Assembly (NCBI RefSeq): GCF_018448935.1
Contig: NZ_RCWC01000038.1
Span: 1 to 56,081 of the forward strand
DNA length: 56,081 nt
Source: Photorhabdus noenieputensis
GTDB lineage: Bacteria; Pseudomonadota; Gammaproteobacteria; Enterobacterales; Enterobacteriaceae
Reading direction: 5' to 3'
Positions 8,010 to 30,640 of the stretch are shown one piece after another; the first letter of the stretch is position 1, and each line of letters opens with the position of its first letter. The position numbers were made by a program, and so were the translations under genes. The notes beneath the pieces are model-generated. The model was not told the DNA's origin. It did no database searches and was given only the letters and a program-made list of their open reading frames with translations.

Positions 8010-8244
8010 GGTTAATTATTCACTTTGCTAACAAAAGCGGCGAGTATACATAAATTCACGCTTATGCACTAGAACTCATTAGCATTTATGAGCTGCCAAT
8101 GAGCATCGTATTTGGCCTAGATGATGGAGCATTGAACTAGCCTTACCACAAAAAGCTGAAATAGCCACTTCAAAAAACGCACCAACCGAAGTCAGTGCGT
8201 CAAATAAGTCAACTCATTAAAGCTTACTCAGGATAAAACTCTTG

Positions 8245-8632
8245 TTTCTAAGCTGCCTGTACGGCAGTGAACGGGCAAATGAGCAAGCAGCATTATTGCG
8301 TGCATTTCTAAGCTGCCTGTACGGCAGTGAACCCGGCGTCGCGCTGATTTTTCAATCGGCTTTGTTTCTAAGCTGCCTGTACGGCAGTGAACGTACCTGC
8401 TGCGTATCATCCCTGACTCTTTCATTTCTAAGCTGCCTGTACGGCAGTGAACCTTATCTTTATTACGTTGTATAGCTTTTATCGTTTCTAAGCTGCCTGT
8501 ACGGCAGTGAACCGGTATCGTAGCCAGGCCGCGAAAGCCGGTAATTTCTAAGCTGCCTGTACGGCAGTGAACTTCACGCGCTGACATGCGAGTATTAAAC
8601 GCTATTTCTAAGCTGCCTGTACGGCAGTGAAC
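8245..8632 (-). CRISPR. Type I-F CRISPR array, 7 repeats and 6 spacers
   Basis: Seven identical 28-base repeats start at 8245, 8305, 8365, 8425, 8485, 8545 and 8605, separated by six 32-base spacers. Read on the minus strand the repeat begins GTTCACTGCC and ends CTTAGAAA, the type I-F (Ypest) repeat of enterobacteria. The AT-rich leader lies to the right, so transcription runs leftward and the newest spacer is 8573-8604. No cas gene is in this window, so the array depends on Cas proteins elsewhere or is orphaned. By eye no spacer matches another part of the window. Confidence 0.98.
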
Positions 8633-8760
8633 TGTTATATATTAACGTTAACCTACTGACAGTTAAAGCATATATTTATTAAATAACGAAAAAACCCTTT
8701 TTTACAAGAGAAGTAATATTTCATTAAAAATCAATCAGTTAAAATTGACCATAAAAAAAG
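8633..8760 (-). promoter_or_regulatory. CRISPR leader
   Basis: AT-rich sequence directly next to the right-most (leader-proximal) repeat. It is largely repeated beside the relict array at 6900-6995. That conservation next to two arrays marks it as the leader that carries the promoter and adaptation signals. Confidence 0.75.
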
Positions 8761-22111: not shown

Positions 22112-22388
22112 TCAAATACCCACAGAATACATTGAAATAGCAAGTGTAAAGTTATCATCCGCGATGTCGCTAGCTGCACTCGCCTCACGGATGGTACAGA
22201 TCTGTTCATCGCTCAATGGTCCGTCATCTTTCTCGTAGTGCGGTAAGTAGCGGTCTGCAAAGTTGCGCAAGGCAAGGTGTGCGATTTCAGTTTTACTCAT
22301 ACCAGTGACTTTAACCAGTTCATCGAGCGTCCCGGCGCTAATCCCTGTCGGCGTATCCTGATTAGTTTTCCCAACGCCGCCACAAGAT
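22112..22388 (-). pseudogene. ParD/RHH-like antitoxin remnant
   Basis: The open frame reads GVGKTNQDTPTGISAGTLDE, continues LVKVTGMSKTEIAHLALRNF, and ends in AISMYSVGI. It resembles small ribbon-helix-helix antitoxin-like proteins of enterobacteria, where SAGTLDEL is followed by MSKTEIAHLALR. No ATG precedes the conserved part; the first ATG (22300) is inside it, and an in-frame stop lies just upstream near 22400. So it is probably a 5'-damaged copy, or a short 62-residue protein if translated from 22300. It sits between the biosynthetic cluster and luxC, and no toxin partner is visible. Confidence 0.45.
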
Positions 22389-22396
22389 GTTCAAAC

Positions 22397-23398
22397 TCAA
22401 CCTTTATACCGATATAACTCCCCCCACATCATATTAGTTATTTGCTCAATATGATCAAAACGCCCGGCTATTTTTTCCAACACTTGCGGTGATAATGTGG
22501 CTTCAAACTTCAACGCTAAAATAGATAAAGCTTTCCAGTGATCAATCAATTCCGTGCAACGCTCAATCAAAGAAGGTGCAATATCAGCTCTGATTAAAGA
22601 ATGTTTTAACAAATTCAAACTGGGTATTACATACAATACGCTAATGTGATCAAACAATCTTTTAGCCGCCCGGCAAGCTTTTTCTTCTGCCTGTTGAAAT
22701 GCATTTAGACATAATTTGCCATAATTTTTCAATGCGTCATAATATTCAGGCAAGGTATTAAATAATTCTGCCTGACGAGTCAGTAATTCCCTTACCGGCA
22801 TAGTTTCATGCTCGCTCAGTGAATCAACAATATAAAAATTACCCATATGATCATAAGTTTCATTGGGCACTTTATCAGAAAGCGCTAAATAAAATTGCTC
22901 AGATGGCATCCATGCCTCACAAGCATAAGATTCCCGATCAACCACCAAAGAATCAAAGATACGCACTTGTGAATAATCATCCGTAATAGCGGAGATCAAC
23001 ACAGCATGCAGGTATTCCGGTTTATTGGTATAAACCTCAGAATAAGATAAATGTGCCGAATTAACCCAAGCAACGACGCCTTTCCTCTGACACAGTAATT
23101 CATACAATTGACGACACCACTGAGCATAATCTATCGGTAATGAAATTATATTTGCGCCCAAAGTCGCCGCACCAGTTAGTCCAACAGTTTCAACTGAGAA
23201 AGTATATTCAGGCATATTCAGTGCATCATAACCACTACGAAATAAATAACCATTACCCGCTTCAAAGATCTCTGCCTCAAAAATCTCTTTACCCTGTAAA
23301 TTAAGTAATCTTGTCAGGCTACCGGTAAAACAATTTATTGCGACATTATTTATCGCGACATTTGCGTATGATTTATCCATCACATTTTCCATGAGCAT
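22397..23398 (-). CDS. BtrH-like cysteine acyltransferase
   Basis: A 333-residue protein whose N-terminal half looks like the BtrH N-terminal domain. BtrH is the butirosin enzyme that transfers an aminoacyl group from an ACP to an amine acceptor. A papain-like triad is readable: Cys in AINCFTGSLTRLL (about residue 23), His in EYLHAVLIS (about 131) and Asp in VRIFDSLVV (about 149). The C-terminal 130 residues are helical and unrecognised. I start at the ATG at 23398, which has AGGTGA upstream; the frame is open six codons further to a TTG. As last gene of the cluster, after an amino acid:carrier protein ligase, it is the likely release or transfer step. Confidence 0.7.
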   Translation of the reverse strand: MLMENVMDKSYANVAINNVAINCFTGSLTRLLNLQGKEIFEAEIFEAGNGYLFRSGYDALNMPEYTFSVETVGLTGAATLGANIISLPIDYAQWCRQLYELLCQRKGVVAWVNSAHLSYSEVYTNKPEYLHAVLISAITDDYSQVRIFDSLVVDRESYACEAWMPSEQFYLALSDKVPNETYDHMGNFYIVDSLSEHETMPVRELLTRQAELFNTLPEYYDALKNYGKLCLNAFQQAEEKACRAAKRLFDHISVLYVIPSLNLLKHSLIRADIAPSLIERCTELIDHWKALSILALKFEATLSPQVLEKIAGRFDHIEQITNMMWGELYRYKG

Positions 23399-23448
23399 TT
23401 TGTCACCTAGATACAATGGGCTAATTTATGAATAGCAGACCAGATATA

Positions 23449-24342
23449 TTATGCCCTGTAATCACGGTTATTTTCCTCCAATATTATTGTGGCTGCTTGT
23501 GCTATATTTTCGATAAGTAAATCAGGTTCATAATTCAAAGTATGTGCTAACAGCGCCAAAAGTAATCTCTCCATTCCGAAAGCAATACAAGCGGAATGCA
23601 TAGCACGATCGCTAGCACGGCTGATAATATTGAAGTTGGTGGTAAATAAATCTCGGTGTAAATTTCGGGAACCAACGCTAACGTTATATTTATCAAACCA
23701 AGGAATAAGTATTTCACACTTGACGCCCATTGATAATTGTACTTTACGAGTCACTTTAGAATGCTCTCCATAAAATACATCACTGGCTTTTTCTACCGAA
23801 AGAGAAGGAAACAGTAAACGTAAGAATTTAACCGCTTGCCCAAATATCATTTCACAATGTGTTTCTACTTTTTCCTGTAGCCCCACCAATATTAATTCAC
23901 GCATGGTAAAATTCCCCATACGGGTAGGCTCATCTTTAGCCGGTTCATATCGATGACACTGCCCTTTAGCTGTAAAATATTTCAGTTCCCAATCATGGGT
24001 ACTCTCTGCTAAATGAGCGAAGGTATGATAACAAGTCGATGGGCTCAATACCCATGCATCCCCGCTATTTTCACTCATGACATCGTGAGTTAAATGAGGA
24101 TAAACATGCAATGGATTGCTAGGCAATTTGTCAAAGAAACTGATACGCTCTAACGTGGATCGAGGTAACAATGTGGTACATGAGTGTGAAGTAACAGATA
24201 TTCCCTTACTTAAAACTTGCAAAAGTGTCTCATCAAGGAACTCAGCAGCAGCATATAAACTGTCAGAGAGCCGGTACCCGACAAGGCCATTCTGCGATTG
24301 CACAATTGATAGCAGCTTACGCTGTTGAAGTTCTTTTATCAT
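23449..24342 (-). CDS. Amino acid:[carrier protein] ligase-like, class II synthetase fold
   Basis: A 297-residue class II aminoacyl-tRNA synthetase catalytic core without a tRNA-binding domain. Motif 2 lies at about 122-155 (FTAKGQCHRYE ... RMGNFTMRELILVG) and motif 3 at about 250-265 (ACIAFGMERLLLALL). Cys104, Glu149 and Cys252 have the spacing of the three zinc ligands in amino acid:carrier protein ligases, which derive from atypical archaeal SerRS and load Gly or Ala onto a carrier protein. The only carrier protein gene here is the ACP at 29205. It should therefore start or decorate the chain with an amino acid. Which amino acid is unknown. Confidence 0.8.
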   Translation of the reverse strand: MIKELQQRKLLSIVQSQNGLVGYRLSDSLYAAAEFLDETLLQVLSKGISVTSHSCTTLLPRSTLERISFFDKLPSNPLHVYPHLTHDVMSENSGDAWVLSPSTCYHTFAHLAESTHDWELKYFTAKGQCHRYEPAKDEPTRMGNFTMRELILVGLQEKVETHCEMIFGQAVKFLRLLFPSLSVEKASDVFYGEHSKVTRKVQLSMGVKCEILIPWFDKYNVSVGSRNLHRDLFTTNFNIISRASDRAMHSACIAFGMERLLLALLAHTLNYEPDLLIENIAQAATIILEENNRDYRA

Positions 24343-24531
24343 ATTTTTATATTACCTTTGCTGATCGATGGTTACGTTATGCTGCCCAGTAAACAATCTC
24401 TGTTCTATAAATAGAAAGGATGTGTTTCCATATCATCAAATATCATCTCCAGATATTTTTCTAAGATGATAAAGAAACACATTTGATCCCAAAATCAATT
24501 AACTGACATTTTAATCAGGACGCCATCAGGG

Positions 24532-26283
24532 TTATTCTTTCCATACGACAAACCCTTCAATATAAAGCTTGTCCAATGAGGTTTTCAAAAATGTCTCTAC
24601 TGCAACCTCTGGTGACATAATAAGCGGCTGTCCCCTAACGTTAAATGAAGTATTCACCAGGCAGCCATAACCCGTTATCTTCTGTACCTCTTTCAATAAT
24701 CGCCAAAAAGTTGCGTTAAAAGTACGCTCAACAAGCTGAATACGCGCCGTTCCATCAGCATGAACAATACCTGACACCGGCTCCATCATCTCTGGTTTTA
24801 CTTTGGCGGTGCAAAGCATATATCGAGTCGGCATTAAATTACGTGTCTCAAAAATAGTGTCGCAATCCTCATCCAATATTGCCGGGGCAAATGGCCGGAA
24901 AGCCTCACGGAATTTTACTGTGCTATTAATTCTATCCTTTATTTTTTCACCTGCTGGCAGAGCTAAAATCGAACGGTTGCCAAGTGCCCTTGGGCCAAAT
25001 TCCATTCGATCATGGAACCAAGCAATGATTTTGTCTTCTGCGATATCTTTAGCCGCAGACGCAAAATAATCATCATTCAGCCCCAAATAACGCCATTTCA
25101 TGCCCGCATTGCCACCATGTCGGAATAATACATTACGGACTTCATCAGTGGAGAAACGAGGACCGAGATAAGGATTAAAGCAAGGATCTGCGCCATTGTT
25201 ATATCCGCCAGCCACAAAAAGCGCAGCGCCCAAGGCCGAACCATCATCACCCGATGCCGGTTGAACAAAGACGTTTTCAACACCATCAAGCTGACAAAGG
25301 GCCTGGTTTGCTTTGCAGTTTAAGAACGATCCTCCAGCAAGGCAGAGTGATGTTTCACCGGTTTTTTGCAGCCAATAGGCCACTAACTGTTTCAGCAACA
25401 GTGTAAATTTCTCCTGTAATCCGGCAGCAAAATCCTGATGAACATCCAGCAAAGGATCATCTTCATTTCTTGGTGTCAAACCAAACATATCGCTCAGTTG
25501 TGCCATTGCACCGGGAAAACCATATTCCGAATTGTCAAATGCTTGCGGTAACCAGTTTATCTGTATCGTTCCACTCTCTGCATCGAATTGAGTCAATTTA
25601 TTGAAAATATCGCGATATCGCTCAGGATTACCATATGCGGCAAGTCCCATGACTTTATATTCATCACTATTAAATACAAAGCCAAGGAACCGGGTACAGA
25701 TAGAATAAAATATTCCTAATGAAGAACTAATTGGCTGACTGTACAATTTCTGGAATTGCTGGTCTTTAGCAAGATAAACACTTAAAGATTCTATTTCACC
25801 CATACCGTCTGAAATGACACATAGTGCCGATGGGAAGCCACTGGGATAAAAGGTTGATGCGGCGTGAGCCAGATGATGATCTACCCCTTGAAAACGTGAT
25901 TCAATATTCTGCCACCCTTCTGAAGCCAATGCATTAATCACGGTTTTTCCGCTAAAAGCCTCCTCAAACATTTTTTCATTCGACATGAAAAAACGGCGAT
26001 ATTTATCATAATTAAAACCGTGGGCAATAACCTGTATATCATCTTGCGTAAGACCCGCTTCCGCCAAACAGTAGTTAATAGCATTAGCAGGAAACCGGCC
26101 GGTTCCTTTTTCTCCGGTAAAGCGCTCTTCCGCAGCCGCTGCAATAATTTTTCCATTAACAATTACGCAGGCTGCACTATCAACTCCCTGACAAATACGC
26201 TCGTCTAATTTACCTATACCTGGGTAATTCTCTCGCATAAAATGTTGCGAATTGGGAAGGCCACTGATACCTAATATAACCAT
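24532..26283 (-). CDS. NodU/CmcH-family carbamoyltransferase
   Basis: A 583-residue O-carbamoyltransferase of the NodU/CmcH/TobZ type, which makes carbamoyl-adenylate from carbamoyl phosphate and ATP and transfers it to a hydroxyl. The N-terminal Kae1-like domain has GVDHHLAHAASTFYPSGF and SDGMGE. It continues with GGSFLNCKANQ and QPASGDDGSALGAAL, and the YrdC-like C-terminal region has FGPRALGNRSIL and TSFNVRGQPLIMSP. I start at 26283 behind GGAGGTG; an in-frame TTG lies five codons upstream. All catalytic blocks look intact, so the cluster's product is probably a carbamate ester. Confidence 0.92.
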   Translation of the reverse strand: MVILGISGLPNSQHFMRENYPGIGKLDERICQGVDSAACVIVNGKIIAAAAEERFTGEKGTGRFPANAINYCLAEAGLTQDDIQVIAHGFNYDKYRRFFMSNEKMFEEAFSGKTVINALASEGWQNIESRFQGVDHHLAHAASTFYPSGFPSALCVISDGMGEIESLSVYLAKDQQFQKLYSQPISSSLGIFYSICTRFLGFVFNSDEYKVMGLAAYGNPERYRDIFNKLTQFDAESGTIQINWLPQAFDNSEYGFPGAMAQLSDMFGLTPRNEDDPLLDVHQDFAAGLQEKFTLLLKQLVAYWLQKTGETSLCLAGGSFLNCKANQALCQLDGVENVFVQPASGDDGSALGAALFVAGGYNNGADPCFNPYLGPRFSTDEVRNVLFRHGGNAGMKWRYLGLNDDYFASAAKDIAEDKIIAWFHDRMEFGPRALGNRSILALPAGEKIKDRINSTVKFREAFRPFAPAILDEDCDTIFETRNLMPTRYMLCTAKVKPEMMEPVSGIVHADGTARIQLVERTFNATFWRLLKEVQKITGYGCLVNTSFNVRGQPLIMSPEVAVETFLKTSLDKLYIEGFVVWKE

Positions 26284-26369
26284 TTTCTTCACCTCCAAAT
26301 TGTTATTTTTCTTTCATAAGAATTAGACTATGCACTTTATACCAATAGCCCATTTTGCATTACCAGGAA

Positions 26370-27554
26370 TCAAGTCACCTTGCCAAATAAAGTAATGGCA
26401 TTATTACCACCAAAACCAAATGCATTGTTTTGTATATATTTTAAATTATTCTTCATTTCCATTTGACGAGTAATTAAATTAAATTGATATTCAAAATCCT
26501 CCTGCAAGATATTTGTTGGCGGCATCATTTGATCTCTCAAAGATAAGCAAGCACTGACTGCGCCAATTGCTCCCGCTGTCGCCATCATATGTCCGATAGT
26601 CCCTTTAATTGCTGAAACCGCCGAATGCGGGAAATATTCAGAGAATATCGATGCTTCTACTGCATCATTGGCCTTAGTCCCAGTACCGTGTGCATATATG
26701 CCACCTATATCTCCGGCTTCCACGCCTGCCAAATCTAATAATTTCTTATGGCACTGGGTGACACTGTTAATATCAGGATTGGTCGGATGTAATGCGTCAT
26801 TATTACTAGCAGTAGCGATCAATTCAGCATAAGGCGATTGATATTCACCAACGTGTTTTCTATTCTGCAACACCAAAAAAGCGGCACCCTCAGATATCGT
26901 AATAAAGCGCCTTAATTTCGAAAACGGACGGCATTGTTCCGCACCTAATGCATTAAGCATGTAGAAACCTGACCACACCTTTTTTGAAAAGGCGTCTCCA
27001 CCGCCAATGATGGATGTCGAGATAATTCCCGCATTCATCATGCGTAGTGCTGTTTCAAGCGCAATATTTGCTGACGCACAAGTATTATGTATCGTCATGG
27101 AAGGCCCGAATGAACCAATTGCACGAGCAACATTATCGGAAACCGCATGACTCGAATAGATATTCGAATGCCAATTTACCGGCATACCTTCAACTAATTG
27201 ATCAAGAATATCCGCCTCAGCCTCATTATTACCCACACACACCAAGGCATTACGCAATTCAGCACACCCTGGTTGTAATCCTGCATCCGCTATCGCTTGA
27301 AGTGCGGCATCGACAGCATACAAAGAAGAATCAGGGAGCTGTATACCGGTACATTTCGGTGCTCTGGCTTTTATATCCAGACGCCGCTCAGCGGAAATTC
27401 TTCCCGCGACAAAATTTGGCTTCAAAGAAGGATAGATCGGTTCCAGTCGAGTAAAATTTGACTCGCCAGCACATAAGTTTTTCCAATAATTTTCGACGTC
27501 TATACCAATTGGAGTAACGACGCCAAGACCTGTAACATATATTTTATCTAACAT
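26370..27554 (-). CDS. Beta-ketoacyl-ACP synthase (active)
   Basis: A 394-residue condensing enzyme of the FabF/KS-alpha class. The catalytic triad is complete: Cys159 in IHNTCASANIAL, His289 in YAHGTGTKAND and His322 in KGTIGHMMATAGA. It starts MLDKIYVTGLGVVTPIG behind a strong AGGAAGGAG site and overlaps the preceding dehydratase gene by 11 bases. It would perform decarboxylative condensation on the cluster's ACP. It resembles KS proteins of type II PKS and aryl-polyene-like clusters more than housekeeping FabF. Its chain-length preference cannot be read from sequence. Confidence 0.92.
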   Translation of the reverse strand: MLDKIYVTGLGVVTPIGIDVENYWKNLCAGESNFTRLEPIYPSLKPNFVAGRISAERRLDIKARAPKCTGIQLPDSSLYAVDAALQAIADAGLQPGCAELRNALVCVGNNEAEADILDQLVEGMPVNWHSNIYSSHAVSDNVARAIGSFGPSMTIHNTCASANIALETALRMMNAGIISTSIIGGGDAFSKKVWSGFYMLNALGAEQCRPFSKLRRFITISEGAAFLVLQNRKHVGEYQSPYAELIATASNNDALHPTNPDINSVTQCHKKLLDLAGVEAGDIGGIYAHGTGTKANDAVEASIFSEYFPHSAVSAIKGTIGHMMATAGAIGAVSACLSLRDQMMPPTNILQEDFEYQFNLITRQMEMKNNLKYIQNNAFGFGGNNAITLFGKVT

Positions 27555-28293
27555 CGTTCTCCTTCCTCTTAATTGATACTGCGTCAGTTATCCAAAGTAA
27601 TTTTTCCCCTTCACAATATGCCCTGGCATCCCAACACATTATTGAGCCAAATCGGGTTACTTTAGTTTCAATAAACACAGGAGAATTAATATGTTCGATA
27701 TCAGGATTGAAGGCCAATTCGCCAAATTTGGCAAAAACATAATCGCCTGCTGTTGAAATACTCTGTTGCTGATGCTGCAAAATTAATGCTAAATTCCCCA
27801 TTGCCTCGACAAGAATAATCAAAGGGAAATAATGATATTTTTGCAAATAAGCCGCTTCACCGCGCAATGATTTCATATCCAGGCTGCAATTCGCTCTGTT
27901 TAATCCATCATTAACATAGACTATTTTCGGCAAAAACCAAAATTCTGGTTCACGCAATGATGGTGATAATAGAGAAGATGCGTAAAAAATTTTTTTACTT
28001 TCACCTTTTGTATCTCTGTCAGAATAATTCAGAAGAAAAGAAAAACAGCGTTGTTCCGATACCATTGCAGAAATTTTATTTTCCACTTGGCGATATTGGA
28101 TATTTTCATCAGGACGTATAAATTGATGAAAAAATAGATTTCTTAAACTGATAAAATCGGCAGATGCATCAGCCATCTCTTTACAAAAAGCGGCGACTGG
28201 CAAGATCCCTGGCACAACAGGATTACCGGGAAAATGATATTTGAATATTTCATCTTGAGGTGAAAAAACATGGTTAATACGATTAATCATCAT
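27544..28293 (-). CDS. Double-hotdog dehydratase-like protein (FabA/FabZ type)
   Basis: A 249-residue protein with two hotdog segments. The first (about residues 15-40) has YHFPGNPVVPGILP, the FabA/FabZ signature with its catalytic-type His. The second (about 153-175) has YFPLIILVEAMGNLALIL, which resembles the central helix of FabA-like proteins with an acidic residue. A dehydratase acting on beta-hydroxyacyl-ACP is the simplest reading. The catalytic His and Asp/Glu come from different halves, as in fused hotdog dehydratases. The gene overlaps both neighbours by 11 bases (CLF-like before, KS after), indicating tight coupling. Confidence 0.8.
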   Translation of the reverse strand: MMINRINHVFSPQDEIFKYHFPGNPVVPGILPVAAFCKEMADASADFISLRNLFFHQFIRPDENIQYRQVENKISAMVSEQRCFSFLLNYSDRDTKGESKKIFYASSLLSPSLREPEFWFLPKIVYVNDGLNRANCSLDMKSLRGEAAYLQKYHYFPLIILVEAMGNLALILQHQQQSISTAGDYVFAKFGELAFNPDIEHINSPVFIETKVTRFGSIMCWDARAYCEGEKLLWITDAVSIKRKENDVR

Positions 28294-29143
28294 TGTGTAT
28301 AACCCTTACGCCTGAAGCATTCATGTTATCGATCACAATAAATACAACAGCATCTCCTTTTTTACTGTGCTTAATCGCCCCCATAAACTTATGAAACAGA
28401 AAAGCGCTATTATATTCTTGGTATTCAATTGCATTATTATCTTTAACAACATGAATTAATGCGTCATTCTGATCCAACGTATTATATATAAATATCTTCG
28501 TATCCGGTGACAAAGCATCACACCGTTTTTTTATCTCTCCCGCCGTTAACCCGAAGAAAAAATCTGCCGTAAATTGTTTTCCACTCAATAGTGTCGCACA
28601 CATCACACCAGAAGATATTGACTTCTGATTGCTGACTTTCTTTCGTATATCATCAAGTGCTTCTGTGCAATAAACATCACCGAAAAAGAGGTAGCTGGCA
28701 CCTATTGATCTATTATGCAGATTAAGCAACGCTTGCATGAATACCATTACAGGGGTTTTACTACCTGCATTTAATGTACAATTTCCTCCCGTTACCTTTT
28801 TGTCAATGTTAATAAAGGTTGAAGCTGAACTGGTGGTAGCATAAGGGAATTGTTGAGCAGATACCATTTTATCATTGTTCATGACCTGCCGCTGAAAACG
28901 AAGCATTGCTTCAAGGTTGCCATATTCTGTACCCACAATCACAGATTCATTTTTTCCATTTCTATCTTCTGCAATAAACTGATTCGCCAGATAGGTACAA
29001 ACGCGGCTAAAGTCATCACGAAAACGATCACCTTTATTGCTTACAAATTCAGAAATATCAGCAGGAAGAGAAAACTCCCCCTCTCTCTCATTCCGAAATA
29101 TATTCGGGTAAATAGCTAAATTTCCCACGTTAAAAGTCAACAT
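28283..29143 (-). CDS. Ketosynthase-like partner lacking the catalytic cysteine
   Basis: A 286-residue protein related to the N-terminal half of beta-ketoacyl synthases. The nucleophile region reads GGNCTLNAGSKTPVMVFMQA, where active enzymes have a Cys in an ACxS turn and this one has Gly (about residue 127). The two C-terminal active-site His blocks are absent, and the protein is about 120 residues shorter than a full KS. In type II PKS such inactive partners (chain-length factors) pair with the KS, and that is my inference here. It begins MLTFNVGNLAIYPN after GAGGGA and overlaps the dehydratase gene. Confidence 0.65.
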   Translation of the reverse strand: MLTFNVGNLAIYPNIFRNEREGEFSLPADISEFVSNKGDRFRDDFSRVCTYLANQFIAEDRNGKNESVIVGTEYGNLEAMLRFQRQVMNNDKMVSAQQFPYATTSSASTFINIDKKVTGGNCTLNAGSKTPVMVFMQALLNLHNRSIGASYLFFGDVYCTEALDDIRKKVSNQKSISSGVMCATLLSGKQFTADFFFGLTAGEIKKRCDALSPDTKIFIYNTLDQNDALIHVVKDNNAIEYQEYNSAFLFHKFMGAIKHSKKGDAVVFIVIDNMNASGVRVIHNDD

Positions 29144-29204
29144 TTTCCCTCAACTTATTATTTGAAAAATAGAGAGTTTTTAATTATTGATTAAGTCAAC
29201 CCGA

Positions 29205-29453
29205 TCATTGCAGGTTATTTTTTATTTCCTCCCATAACTCACCTACAGTTTGAATACGGGCAAGCGCATCTTCAGAAACCTCCTTACCAAAAGTTCGCTC
29301 AACTGACAAAATGACATCAATTAACTTTAATGAGTCAATACCGAGATCACTCTTCAACAATTTATTCGACGTTATTTTAAAATCCGGGTCTAACTCAGCA
29401 ACATTCACCAAAATACTTGCTAATTCTTCATTAACCATATCAATATTATCCAT
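29205..29453 (-). CDS. Acyl carrier protein
   Basis: An 82-residue ACP. The phosphopantetheine attachment Ser lies in SDLGIDSLKLIDVI (about residue 56), and the surrounding four-helix pattern and acidic composition are typical. It is distinct from housekeeping AcpP, which has DSLDTVE at this place. It is the only carrier protein in the cluster and so the likely partner of both the ketosynthase pair and the amino acid:carrier protein ligase. A strong ribosome site precedes it, and an ERIC element lies just upstream. Confidence 0.93.
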   Translation of the reverse strand: MDNIDMVNEELASILVNVAELDPDFKITSNKLLKSDLGIDSLKLIDVILSVERTFGKEVSEDALARIQTVGELWEEIKNNLQ

Positions 29454-29947
29454 ATCACATCCCCAATGATGTCTATTCAGATCTAATGGTTTTTATACCC
29501 ATTATCTTTCAAGTTGCCTCTTTGTTGGCTGCTCTCGCTCACCCCAGTCACATAATTCTCTATGATCCCGGGGATTCACTCCCTTGCCATCGCGATGCAT
29601 CTTGAAATCCATAGGGTATATATAAATTTCTCATAAATCGTTTCCCCCATACATATATCGAAAAACGCATTCCAATTAACGGCCAGCAACAATTACGCCT
29701 ATTGGGATAGGTATTTACCCAAGAAAATAATTCATAACCGATATAAAAGCAGAGGTATCTGATAATCAGTTTTGGTTCCTATTCCAAATAACGTACCCAA
29801 AATTGGAATAATAACCAATAACCTTTTCTCATTACAGCGATTGGCAATATTAGGCCAAGTGAAGAAATACATTTATCATATACCCAACCCAATATTCCAG
29901 TTAATTGATAAAAACATGATTGTAGATCACGATTTATGATATTGTTA
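29454..29947. other. Intergenic region between ACP and ketoreductase genes
   Basis: About 490 bases with an ERIC element (29494-29622) and AT-rich sequence. The gap separates the ketoreductase gene from the other eight genes, so the ACP-to-BtrH run probably has its own promoter between 29623 and 29947. I cannot pick it out. Confidence 0.45.
29494..29622. repeat. ERIC element, full length
   Basis: A complete ERIC copy (ends TATACCCATT and CATAGGGTATA) in the leader of the ACP gene, between it and the ketoreductase gene. Confidence 0.9.
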
Positions 29948-30640
29948 TTAACCACTTAATCCCCCATCAATGCAAAGAGATGTTCCTGTGATATAGGTTG
30001 ATGTACTCAATGTCCCCACACAAAAACTGGCAATTTCATCGACATCTGCCATTCGTTTTAATGCTGTGCTTCTGGCGAATTCCATCTTTTTTTCTGGAGA
30101 AATATGACGTAACATACCACCATCAACATATCCCGGCATTACAGTGTAAGCCCTAACATTAAAACGGCCGTAGTCATTTGAGATGTTTTTCACCAATGCA
30201 TTCATGGCGGCTTTTGAACAAGAATAAGCAGTAGCGCCTGTCTCCCCACGTAAACTTGCTGTAGAAGAAATAAATTGCATCACGCCATTACGATTCTTCA
30301 TAAAATGCGGCAGCAAATATTTTGCTACTCTTGCGGCACCAAACAAGTTGACATTAAAAACATCATGCCAACCCTCAATATCCTGAGCATGCAATAAACC
30401 ATCCAATGACATTGCCGGTGTATAGATAACCGCGTCAATACATTTCATTTTCTCAACCGCAATGCCAATGGCTTCTCTAACGCTGTTATCCGACATAACA
30501 TCTAAATAAATTTCTTCATTACACGGTTTACGTGAAGTACCTAATACTTCATAGCCGCTGGCAACCGCATGTCGGCAAATTGCATTCCCAATTTCACTTG
30601 ATGAACCAATAATAAGTATCTTGCTGTTATATTTATGCAT
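29948..30640 (-). CDS. Short-chain dehydrogenase, ketoacyl reductase-like (FabG type)
   Basis: A 230-residue SDR of the classical type. The NADP motif is slightly unusual (IGSSSEIG instead of TGxxxGIG). The catalytic Ser-Tyr-Lys is complete: Ser in FISSTASL, then Tyr and Lys in TAYSCSKAAM (about residues 146-150). VMPGYVDGGMLRHI and TGTSLCIDGGLSG are the closing family blocks. In this setting it would reduce the beta-ketoacyl-ACP. It is the first gene of the cluster, 490 bases ahead of the ACP and divergent from dauA. Confidence 0.85.
   Translation of the reverse strand: MHKYNSKILIIGSSSEIGNAICRHAVASGYEVLGTSRKPCNEEIYLDVMSDNSVREAIGIAVEKMKCIDAVIYTPAMSLDGLLHAQDIEGWHDVFNVNLFGAARVAKYLLPHFMKNRNGVMQFISSTASLRGETGATAYSCSKAAMNALVKNISNDYGRFNVRAYTVMPGYVDGGMLRHISPEKKMEFARSTALKRMADVDEIASFCVGTLSTSTYITGTSLCIDGGLSG

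Follow-up and report, generated by a model that had tools for sequence, protein, structure and literature searches.

Eight genes of Photorhabdus noenieputensis, located on the minus strand between luxC and a SulP-type gene, may constitute a small natural-product cluster whose product combines a reduced chain, a carbamate, and an amino acid that is joined via an amino acid:carrier-protein ligase and amide formation by a BtrH-like enzyme; we give this reading a probability of about 0.5. The genes fill positions 22397-30640 of a stretch of 56,081 bp (contig NZ_RCWC01000038.1), which was analyzed as a whole and is referred to here as the window. They encode a ketoreductase (KR), an acyl carrier protein (ACP1), a probable chain length factor (CLF)-like partner of a ketosynthase, a double-hotdog protein (HD), a ketosynthase (KS), an O-carbamoyltransferase (CT), the amino acid:carrier-protein ligase (LIG), and the BtrH-like enzyme. 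The original prediction had described a "nine-step-looking" type II polyketide synthase (PKS)-like cluster on one strand. The cluster is borne out by the open reading frames (ORFs) and by scans against Pfam and NCBIfam, with the source genome amounting to 5.36 Mb; "nine" was a loose figure for eight genes, and the family assignments hold in view of the scans and of the conserved catalytic residues.

The two genes at the downstream end are central to the proposed role of an amino acid. LIG matched family model NF005479 with 113.7 bits (8.1e-33), below the cut-off of 357, and therefore belongs to the same superfamily without being that equivalog. With hmmsearch, the structures 4h2w (5.9e-22) and 3mey (2.8e-21) were recovered over profile positions 95-265. 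The zinc ligands of known amino acid:[carrier protein] ligases are Cys-Glu-Cys, and Cys104, Glu149, and Cys252 of LIG are invariant in five of five aligned ligases, exactly with the spacing that had been noted from the sequence. Distant ligase matches were present in 6 other genomes of the 369 covered by the class search. The BtrH-like protein has a papain-like fold with a helical C-terminal part and matches the structures of CtaG and CcbD, its identity to the CtaG, AziU2-U3, and CcbD chains being 9-13%. Its residues Cys29, His137, and Asp155, a Cys/His/Asp set as named at the outset, are invariant in all six aligned sequences and follow the same order as CtaG residues 11, 128, and 144, which are named in PDB entry titles (the order was compared, without residue-by-residue superposition). 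This fold class forms amides. The original prediction had envisaged an aminoacyl-primed or aminoacyl-capped product; of the two, the CtaG- and CcbD-like fold of the BtrH-like protein and its pairing with the ligase favor capping by amide formation over priming.

The remaining genes resemble a type II PKS core with a CT attached. The Cys-His-His residues of KS (C159/H289/H322) are invariant in six of six aligned sequences, and its best PDB match is 9s5h_B (213.7 bits), with 197.1 bits for 6kxd_A, the ishigamide KS. In HD, His20 of the first half and Glu163 of the second half are likewise invariant (6/6); a His in one half and a Glu in the other is the arrangement of a pseudo-dimeric dehydratase. 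The FabA-like Pfam match of HD (2.4e-6) covers the first half only, and the PDB matches, mostly of the FabZ type, all fall on that half as well. The partner of KS gave no KS match in the Pfam and NCBIfam scans. Its predicted structure (mean predicted local distance difference test score, 59.6) matches thiolase-fold enzymes, among them the ishigamide CLF, and its sequence matches 9s5h_C with an E value of 0.0056. CT carries both domains of its family, Carbam_trans_N (1.7e-45; 156.4 bits, cut-off 24) and Carbam_trans_C (5.3e-63; 212 bits, cut-off 27), and is matched in the PDB by decarbamoylnovobiocin carbamoyltransferase 9s2t (5.4e-93), GdmN (1e-88), and TobZ (1.4e-66). Judging from its relatives, an ATG about five codons inside the called ORF is the likelier start.

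The genes are maintained in part of the genus. Among 12 Photorhabdus genomes, the source genome included, six contain all eight genes with unchanged order and the same flanks, luxC on one side and the SulP-type gene on the other (the window, L012, L013, L014, L018, and L019), and P. akhurstii DSM 15138 (L023) also carries all eight. No internal stop occurs in the matched stretches of the eight genes in these five other genomes and L023. In a simple Nei-Gojobori count for a single pair, the window and P. khanii (L025), the ratios of nonsynonymous to synonymous divergence (dN/dS) were 0.085 for KR, 0.061 for ACP1, 0.221 for CLF, 0.251 for HD, 0.080 for KS, 0.080 for CT, 0.120 for LIG, and 0.141 for the BtrH-like gene, at a dS of 0.44-0.80. 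The low ratios and the open frames together indicate that the eight genes are maintained.

The reactions, step order, and product that we infer for the cluster would be as follows. KS and its CLF-like partner, a predicted heterodimer elongating malonyl-ACP, would act with KR and the double-hotdog dehydratase to assemble, on ACP1, a chain that is reduced or unsaturated, and the NodU/TobZ-type CT would carbamoylate a hydroxyl, which its family suggests to be a hydroxyl of the chain. LIG would activate a small amino acid, with the zinc ion holding the amino group, and load it onto a carrier protein, from which the BtrH-like Cys-His-Asp enzyme would move an acyl group onto an amine to give an amide. 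This transfer could proceed in two directions. The amino acid might be donated to an amine of the product and so cap it, and a transfer from aminoacyl-carrier to amine is the direction taken in butirosin and celesticetin biosynthesis. Alternatively, the PKS chain might be transferred to the amino acid on its carrier, which would suit the Photorhabdus gene set since no separate amine source is required.

A search for the same gene set in other genomes, which had been proposed at the outset, located the core also in Xenorhabdus griffiniae VH1 and in the actinomycete Kutzneria buriramensis DSM 45791. These two and six Photorhabdus loci were the eight loci obtained when a genome collection (84,980 species per its description) was scanned with the CLF alignment, using only two peptide patterns and 139 stretches. 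In a CLF profile search, 6 of 392 family genomes were positive, including that of the window and one weak match (E 2e-4) inside an 873-aa frame; the single positive among 394 genomes of the Kutzneria class was Kutzneria itself. The core of X. griffiniae is accompanied by a second small carrier-like protein (ACP2), a MATE transporter, an ATP-grasp enzyme, a class III aminotransferase, and a nonribosomal peptide synthetase (NRPS) that was identified by sequence reading. Its ACP1 is fused to a heme-oxygenase-like domain (L021:15239-16309; PF14518, 23.3 bits, below cut-off), and this fusion is a possible carrier-linked iron oxidase. In Kutzneria, the additional genes encode a further ACP, a condensation-domain protein (below cut-off), a GDP-mannose dehydratase, an epimerase, and a family-11 glycosyltransferase, and the full ligase and the BtrH-like gene lie on the strand opposite the KS block. 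A ligase fragment (L027:14461-14964) follows CT and ACP2 there and precedes a transposase gene, perhaps reflecting a duplication with one broken copy.

The Photorhabdus proteins are 56% (KS) and 62% (CT) identical to those of Kutzneria and 57% and 56%, respectively, to those of X. griffiniae. Such similar closeness to both genera suggests horizontal transfer of the cluster; plain vertical descent from a Photorhabdus-Xenorhabdus ancestor was rejected given that Kutzneria is about as close as X. griffiniae and that a single Xenorhabdus locus appeared in the scan with the two CLF peptide patterns. Spread by plasmids was rejected too. No tblastn match to the BtrH-like or CLF protein of the window was obtained in the plasmid collection, and the KS and ligase matches there (941 and 71 records, respectively) were all below 60% identity.

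The two relatives outside the genus bear on the question of which carrier is charged. The ACP2 gene of X. griffiniae is located between CT and the ligase (L021:10447-10704; PP-binding, 14.9 bits, under the cut-off of 20.8), and Kutzneria encodes an ACP2-like protein, the frame of which runs on into other letters, after CT and before the ligase fragment. No intact ACP was found in the CT-LIG gap (184-215 bp) of the seven Photorhabdus loci tested; the gap holds a remnant whose alignment to ACP2 starts near the serine region. Smith-Waterman scores against ACP2 of X. griffiniae and Kutzneria were 81 and 70 for P. tasmaniensis (L026), in which the DSL motif is kept, 66 and 58 for P. khanii, and 43 and 55 for the window, and none of 500 shuffles reached the score of any of these three remnants. 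For the remaining four gaps, between 0 and 29 of the shuffles did so, the weakest being L022 (29 with the X. griffiniae query and 2 with the Kutzneria query), and the tested gaps are related rather than independent. The window gap ranked first among 888 tiles with both queries, though narrowly: its scores of 43 (X. griffiniae query) and 55 (Kutzneria query) compare with 41 in each case. A convincing second copy of ACP2 was not found elsewhere in the genome, where the best matches were weak (E 0.035 and 0.038). ACP2 thus seems to have decayed in Photorhabdus. LIG is still under constraint, so that a working pathway would have to rely on a substitute carrier, either ACP1 or an ACP encoded elsewhere. 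Charging of ACP1 by LIG is possible, and would be derived only, because ACP2 sits beside the ligase in X. griffiniae and has decayed in Photorhabdus.

A single intact ACP in the Photorhabdus cluster, with the lowest dN/dS of the eight genes, would also fit aminoacyl priming, in which the ligase loads ACP1, KS extends the aminoacyl starter with malonyl units, and the role of the BtrH-like enzyme is limited to chain release. We regard this as unlikely. The second carrier-like protein in X. griffiniae and, less clearly, in Kutzneria points to aminoacyl and ketide tracks that are kept apart, the ligase-BtrH pair of Kutzneria is opposite in strand to the KS block, and the observed fold belongs to a class of amide formers.

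Losses within the genus raise the question of whether the cluster makes a product at all. It has decayed in 4 of the 12 genomes: L015 and L020 keep CT and at most a piece of KR, and L016 and L017 keep CT, a full-length KR, and the tail of KS. Two further genomes, G150 and G151, have no CT match better than 38% identity. A 127-bp repeat that is situated between KR and ACP1 in the window has at least 42 matches in the source genome (40 scored of 282 candidates; fold z, -3.28) and is presumably an element similar to miniature inverted-repeat transposable elements or enterobacterial repetitive intergenic consensus sequences. Three of the four decayed clusters (L015, L016, and L017) have copies or part copies of it at their deletion junctions or close to them, and none was seen in L020. 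These deletions and the ACP2 remnant would be expected of a dying cluster without product that decays step by step. The absence of internal stops in six other genomes and dN/dS values of 0.06-0.25 between the window and P. khanii make this improbable, and it is the least favored of the explanations considered.

Several points nevertheless weigh against a carbamoylated, amide-capped product. In Photorhabdus, the ligase is without its apparent partner ACP2, and ACP2 is itself a weak carrier match whose Kutzneria copy precedes a broken ligase and may be degenerate too. The probable assignment of the KS partner as a CLF draws on a low-confidence model, and hhalign comparison of the CLF and KS profiles shows no match (probability, 0.2). 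The BtrH_N score of the window protein (19.1; E 0.0016) is under the Pfam cut-off of 29.7, as is that of Kutzneria (21.8), with X. griffiniae reaching 30.2, and AziU3 shares the fold yet is no amide former. An amine-forming enzyme, a thioesterase, and a transporter are all absent among the eight Photorhabdus genes. Moreover, CT is kept in all four decayed clusters, open in three and with one stop in L017, and its pairwise dN/dS among L015, L016, and L017 is 0.09; being retained and constrained, it may have a further role. The locus might accordingly house two or more separate functions, with CT, with or without KR, modifying something else and the rest forming a separate pathway, and the full-length KR in L016 and L017 would agree with this. 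We consider such a split rather unlikely, given that CT is the gene right behind KS in each of Photorhabdus, X. griffiniae, and Kutzneria and that the other CT of the source genome is only 36% identical to that of the cluster. A joint pathway to a carbamoylated, amide-capped product remains our preferred reading.

The features of the locus are compiled in Table 1. The CLF and HD genes as well as the HD and KS genes overlap by 11 bp, and the remaining intergenic gaps measure 494, 61, 71, 189, and 32 bp. The neighboring luxC was confirmed by NCBIfam (900 bits), luxD and the SulP-type gene were identified by sequence reading without a family scan, and luxD, A, B, and E are named on our assumption from size and order in the lux operon. 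Between luxC and the BtrH-like gene, a frame of 62 aa (22112-22300) without a Pfam or NCBIfam match presumably represents a fragment of a ribbon-helix-helix antitoxin. Elsewhere in the window (8242-8633), an array of clustered regularly interspaced short palindromic repeats (CRISPR) with seven repeats at 60-base spacing matches Rfam family CRISPR-DR4.

Table 1. Features of the eight-gene locus, with positions in the window
Feature	Position	Strand	Basis
Ketoreductase (short-chain dehydrogenase/reductase)	29948..30640	-	PF13561 4.5e-35, TIGR01830 9.4e-35, YxxxK motif
127-bp repeat with inverted ends, in KR-ACP gap	29494..29620	-	Genome copies and fold score
Acyl carrier protein ACP1	29205..29453	-	PF00550 7e-9; Ser41 in GIDSLKL; sequence alignment
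Probable inactive KS partner (CLF-like), 286 aa	28283..29143	-	Predicted-structure matches
Double-hotdog dehydratase	27544..28293	-	PF07977 2.4e-6; H20 in half 1, E163 in half 2 (half 2 by motif only)
Active ketosynthase	26370..27554	-	ketoacyl-synt 2.2e-23; C159/H289/H322
O-carbamoyltransferase, NodU/TobZ/GdmN/NovN type	24532..26298	-	PF16861/PF02543, PDB matches
ACP2 remnant, no intact frame	24378..24482	-	Smith-Waterman versus X. griffiniae and Kutzneria ACP2
Amino acid:carrier-protein ligase, class II aminoacyl-tRNA synthetase-like	23449..24342	-	NF005479, 4h2w/3mey, zinc site C104/E149/C252
BtrH/CtaG/CcbD-like papain-fold acyltransferase	22397..23416	-	Fold; C29/H137/D155

Relatives of the ligase on plasmids extend the comparison to other gene neighborhoods. 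Eleven of these were opened, chosen from the best 20 of the 71 plasmid records with matches, and nine were annotated. DUF1839 directly follows the ligase in six of the nine (three from Caballeronia, two from Azospirillum, and one from Rhizobium; L039, L040, and L044-L047), with ACP and an acyl-CoA dehydrogenase ahead of them; it is not next to the ligase in the three from Tsukamurella, Priestia, and Streptomyces. A published survey counts both DUF1839 and the BtrH-like family as papain-like; for DUF1839, it gives a C(T/S)H triad and guesses at a role in the cell wall (PMC10318531). By analogy of position, DUF1839 may be an aminoacyl transferase that occupies the slot of BtrH and acts on a carrier-bound amino acid. 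Homology of the two by profile comparison was unsupported (hhalign probability, 0.2), and one weak BtrH_N match (E 0.03) was obtained among two DUF1839 proteins scanned. If true, the proposal would provide a testable function for such ligases in Rhizobium, Azospirillum, and Caballeronia, which are orphans at present. On a plasmid of Streptomyces decoyicus (L042), a ligase relative annotated as a hypothetical protein adjoins a phosphopantetheine protein, a glycine amidinotransferase, dpgABC, and a PGM1-type peptide ligase, possibly another uncharacterized use of such ligases. More speculatively, the cluster could follow an NRPS-free polyketide-peptide logic, with the synthetase-like ligase charging a carrier with an amino acid and the papain-fold transferase forming the amide with the type II PKS chain. 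On a broader view, the two enzymes could be a portable aminoacylation module, with BtrH here and DUF1839 elsewhere, and Photorhabdus would be a natural example of a lost dedicated carrier being replaced by the ACP of a PKS; we hold this general scheme to be doubtful at present.

Among known systems, the highly reducing type II PKSs for ishigamide (Iga11-Iga12) and aryl polyenes (ApeO-ApeC) likewise consist of discrete KS, CLF-like partner, KR, dehydratase, and ACP proteins, and the cluster KS is nearest in the PDB to 9s5h_B and 6kxd_A. In contrast to them, the KS partner described here has 286 aa and lacks a recognizable KS signature, the double-hotdog dehydratase is a single chain, and CT, ligase, and BtrH-like genes are added. 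A half-size CLF is also known in ApeC (PMC8358021). The system for cispentacin and coronafacic acid (AmcB-AmcH) is a small KS-CLF system on one ACP, and ligase, BtrH-like, and CT genes are not among the functions of it that were compared (PMC10698177). A pathway of the cispentacin/coronafacate type was rejected because the Amc models are far under their cut-offs, with 162 bits for KS to AmcF (cut-off 325) and 23.9 for ACP1 to AmcB (cut-off 80); for the other cluster proteins, no Amc model was among the listed NCBIfam families (for KR, the best 25 of 217).

With the Bradyrhizobium Bll0957-type ligases (3mey/4h2w), LIG has the core domain and the Cys-Glu-Cys site in common, the shared region spanning about residues 95-265. 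Five plasmid ligase relatives adjoin ACP, acyl-CoA dehydrogenase, DUF1839, and GH2 genes, whereas PKS genes and BtrH take their place here. BtrH, CcbD, and CtaG share the fold and the Cys-His-Asp order with the window protein, and the known members use a carrier-bound acyl donor. BtrH-type enzymes are elsewhere partnered with BtrJ or an adenylation domain, in contrast to the synthetase-like ligase found here. NovN, GdmN, TobZ, and NodU have both Pfam domains in common with CT (PDB E values of 5e-93 to 1e-65), which in this case is not part of an aminoglycoside, ansamycin, or Nod-factor cluster.

The main text of a 2022 survey of Xenorhabdus and Photorhabdus clusters does not contain the terms "carbamoyl" or "T2PKS" (PMC9177418). 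In agreement with the original prediction, which had recognized no described pathway, no pathway with the same gene set was among the papers listed by the literature searches, which had most subscription journals outside their reach and of which two listed 20 of 27 and 12 of 137 papers. If our reading is true, a tRNA synthetase-like ligase and a papain-fold amide maker are tied to a small type II PKS, a combination for which these searches showed no description. Its presence in several culturable Photorhabdus species and its decay in others make it directly testable by knockout and comparative metabolomics. The parts are those of known families; to our knowledge, what is new is how they are combined and that the dedicated carrier has been lost.

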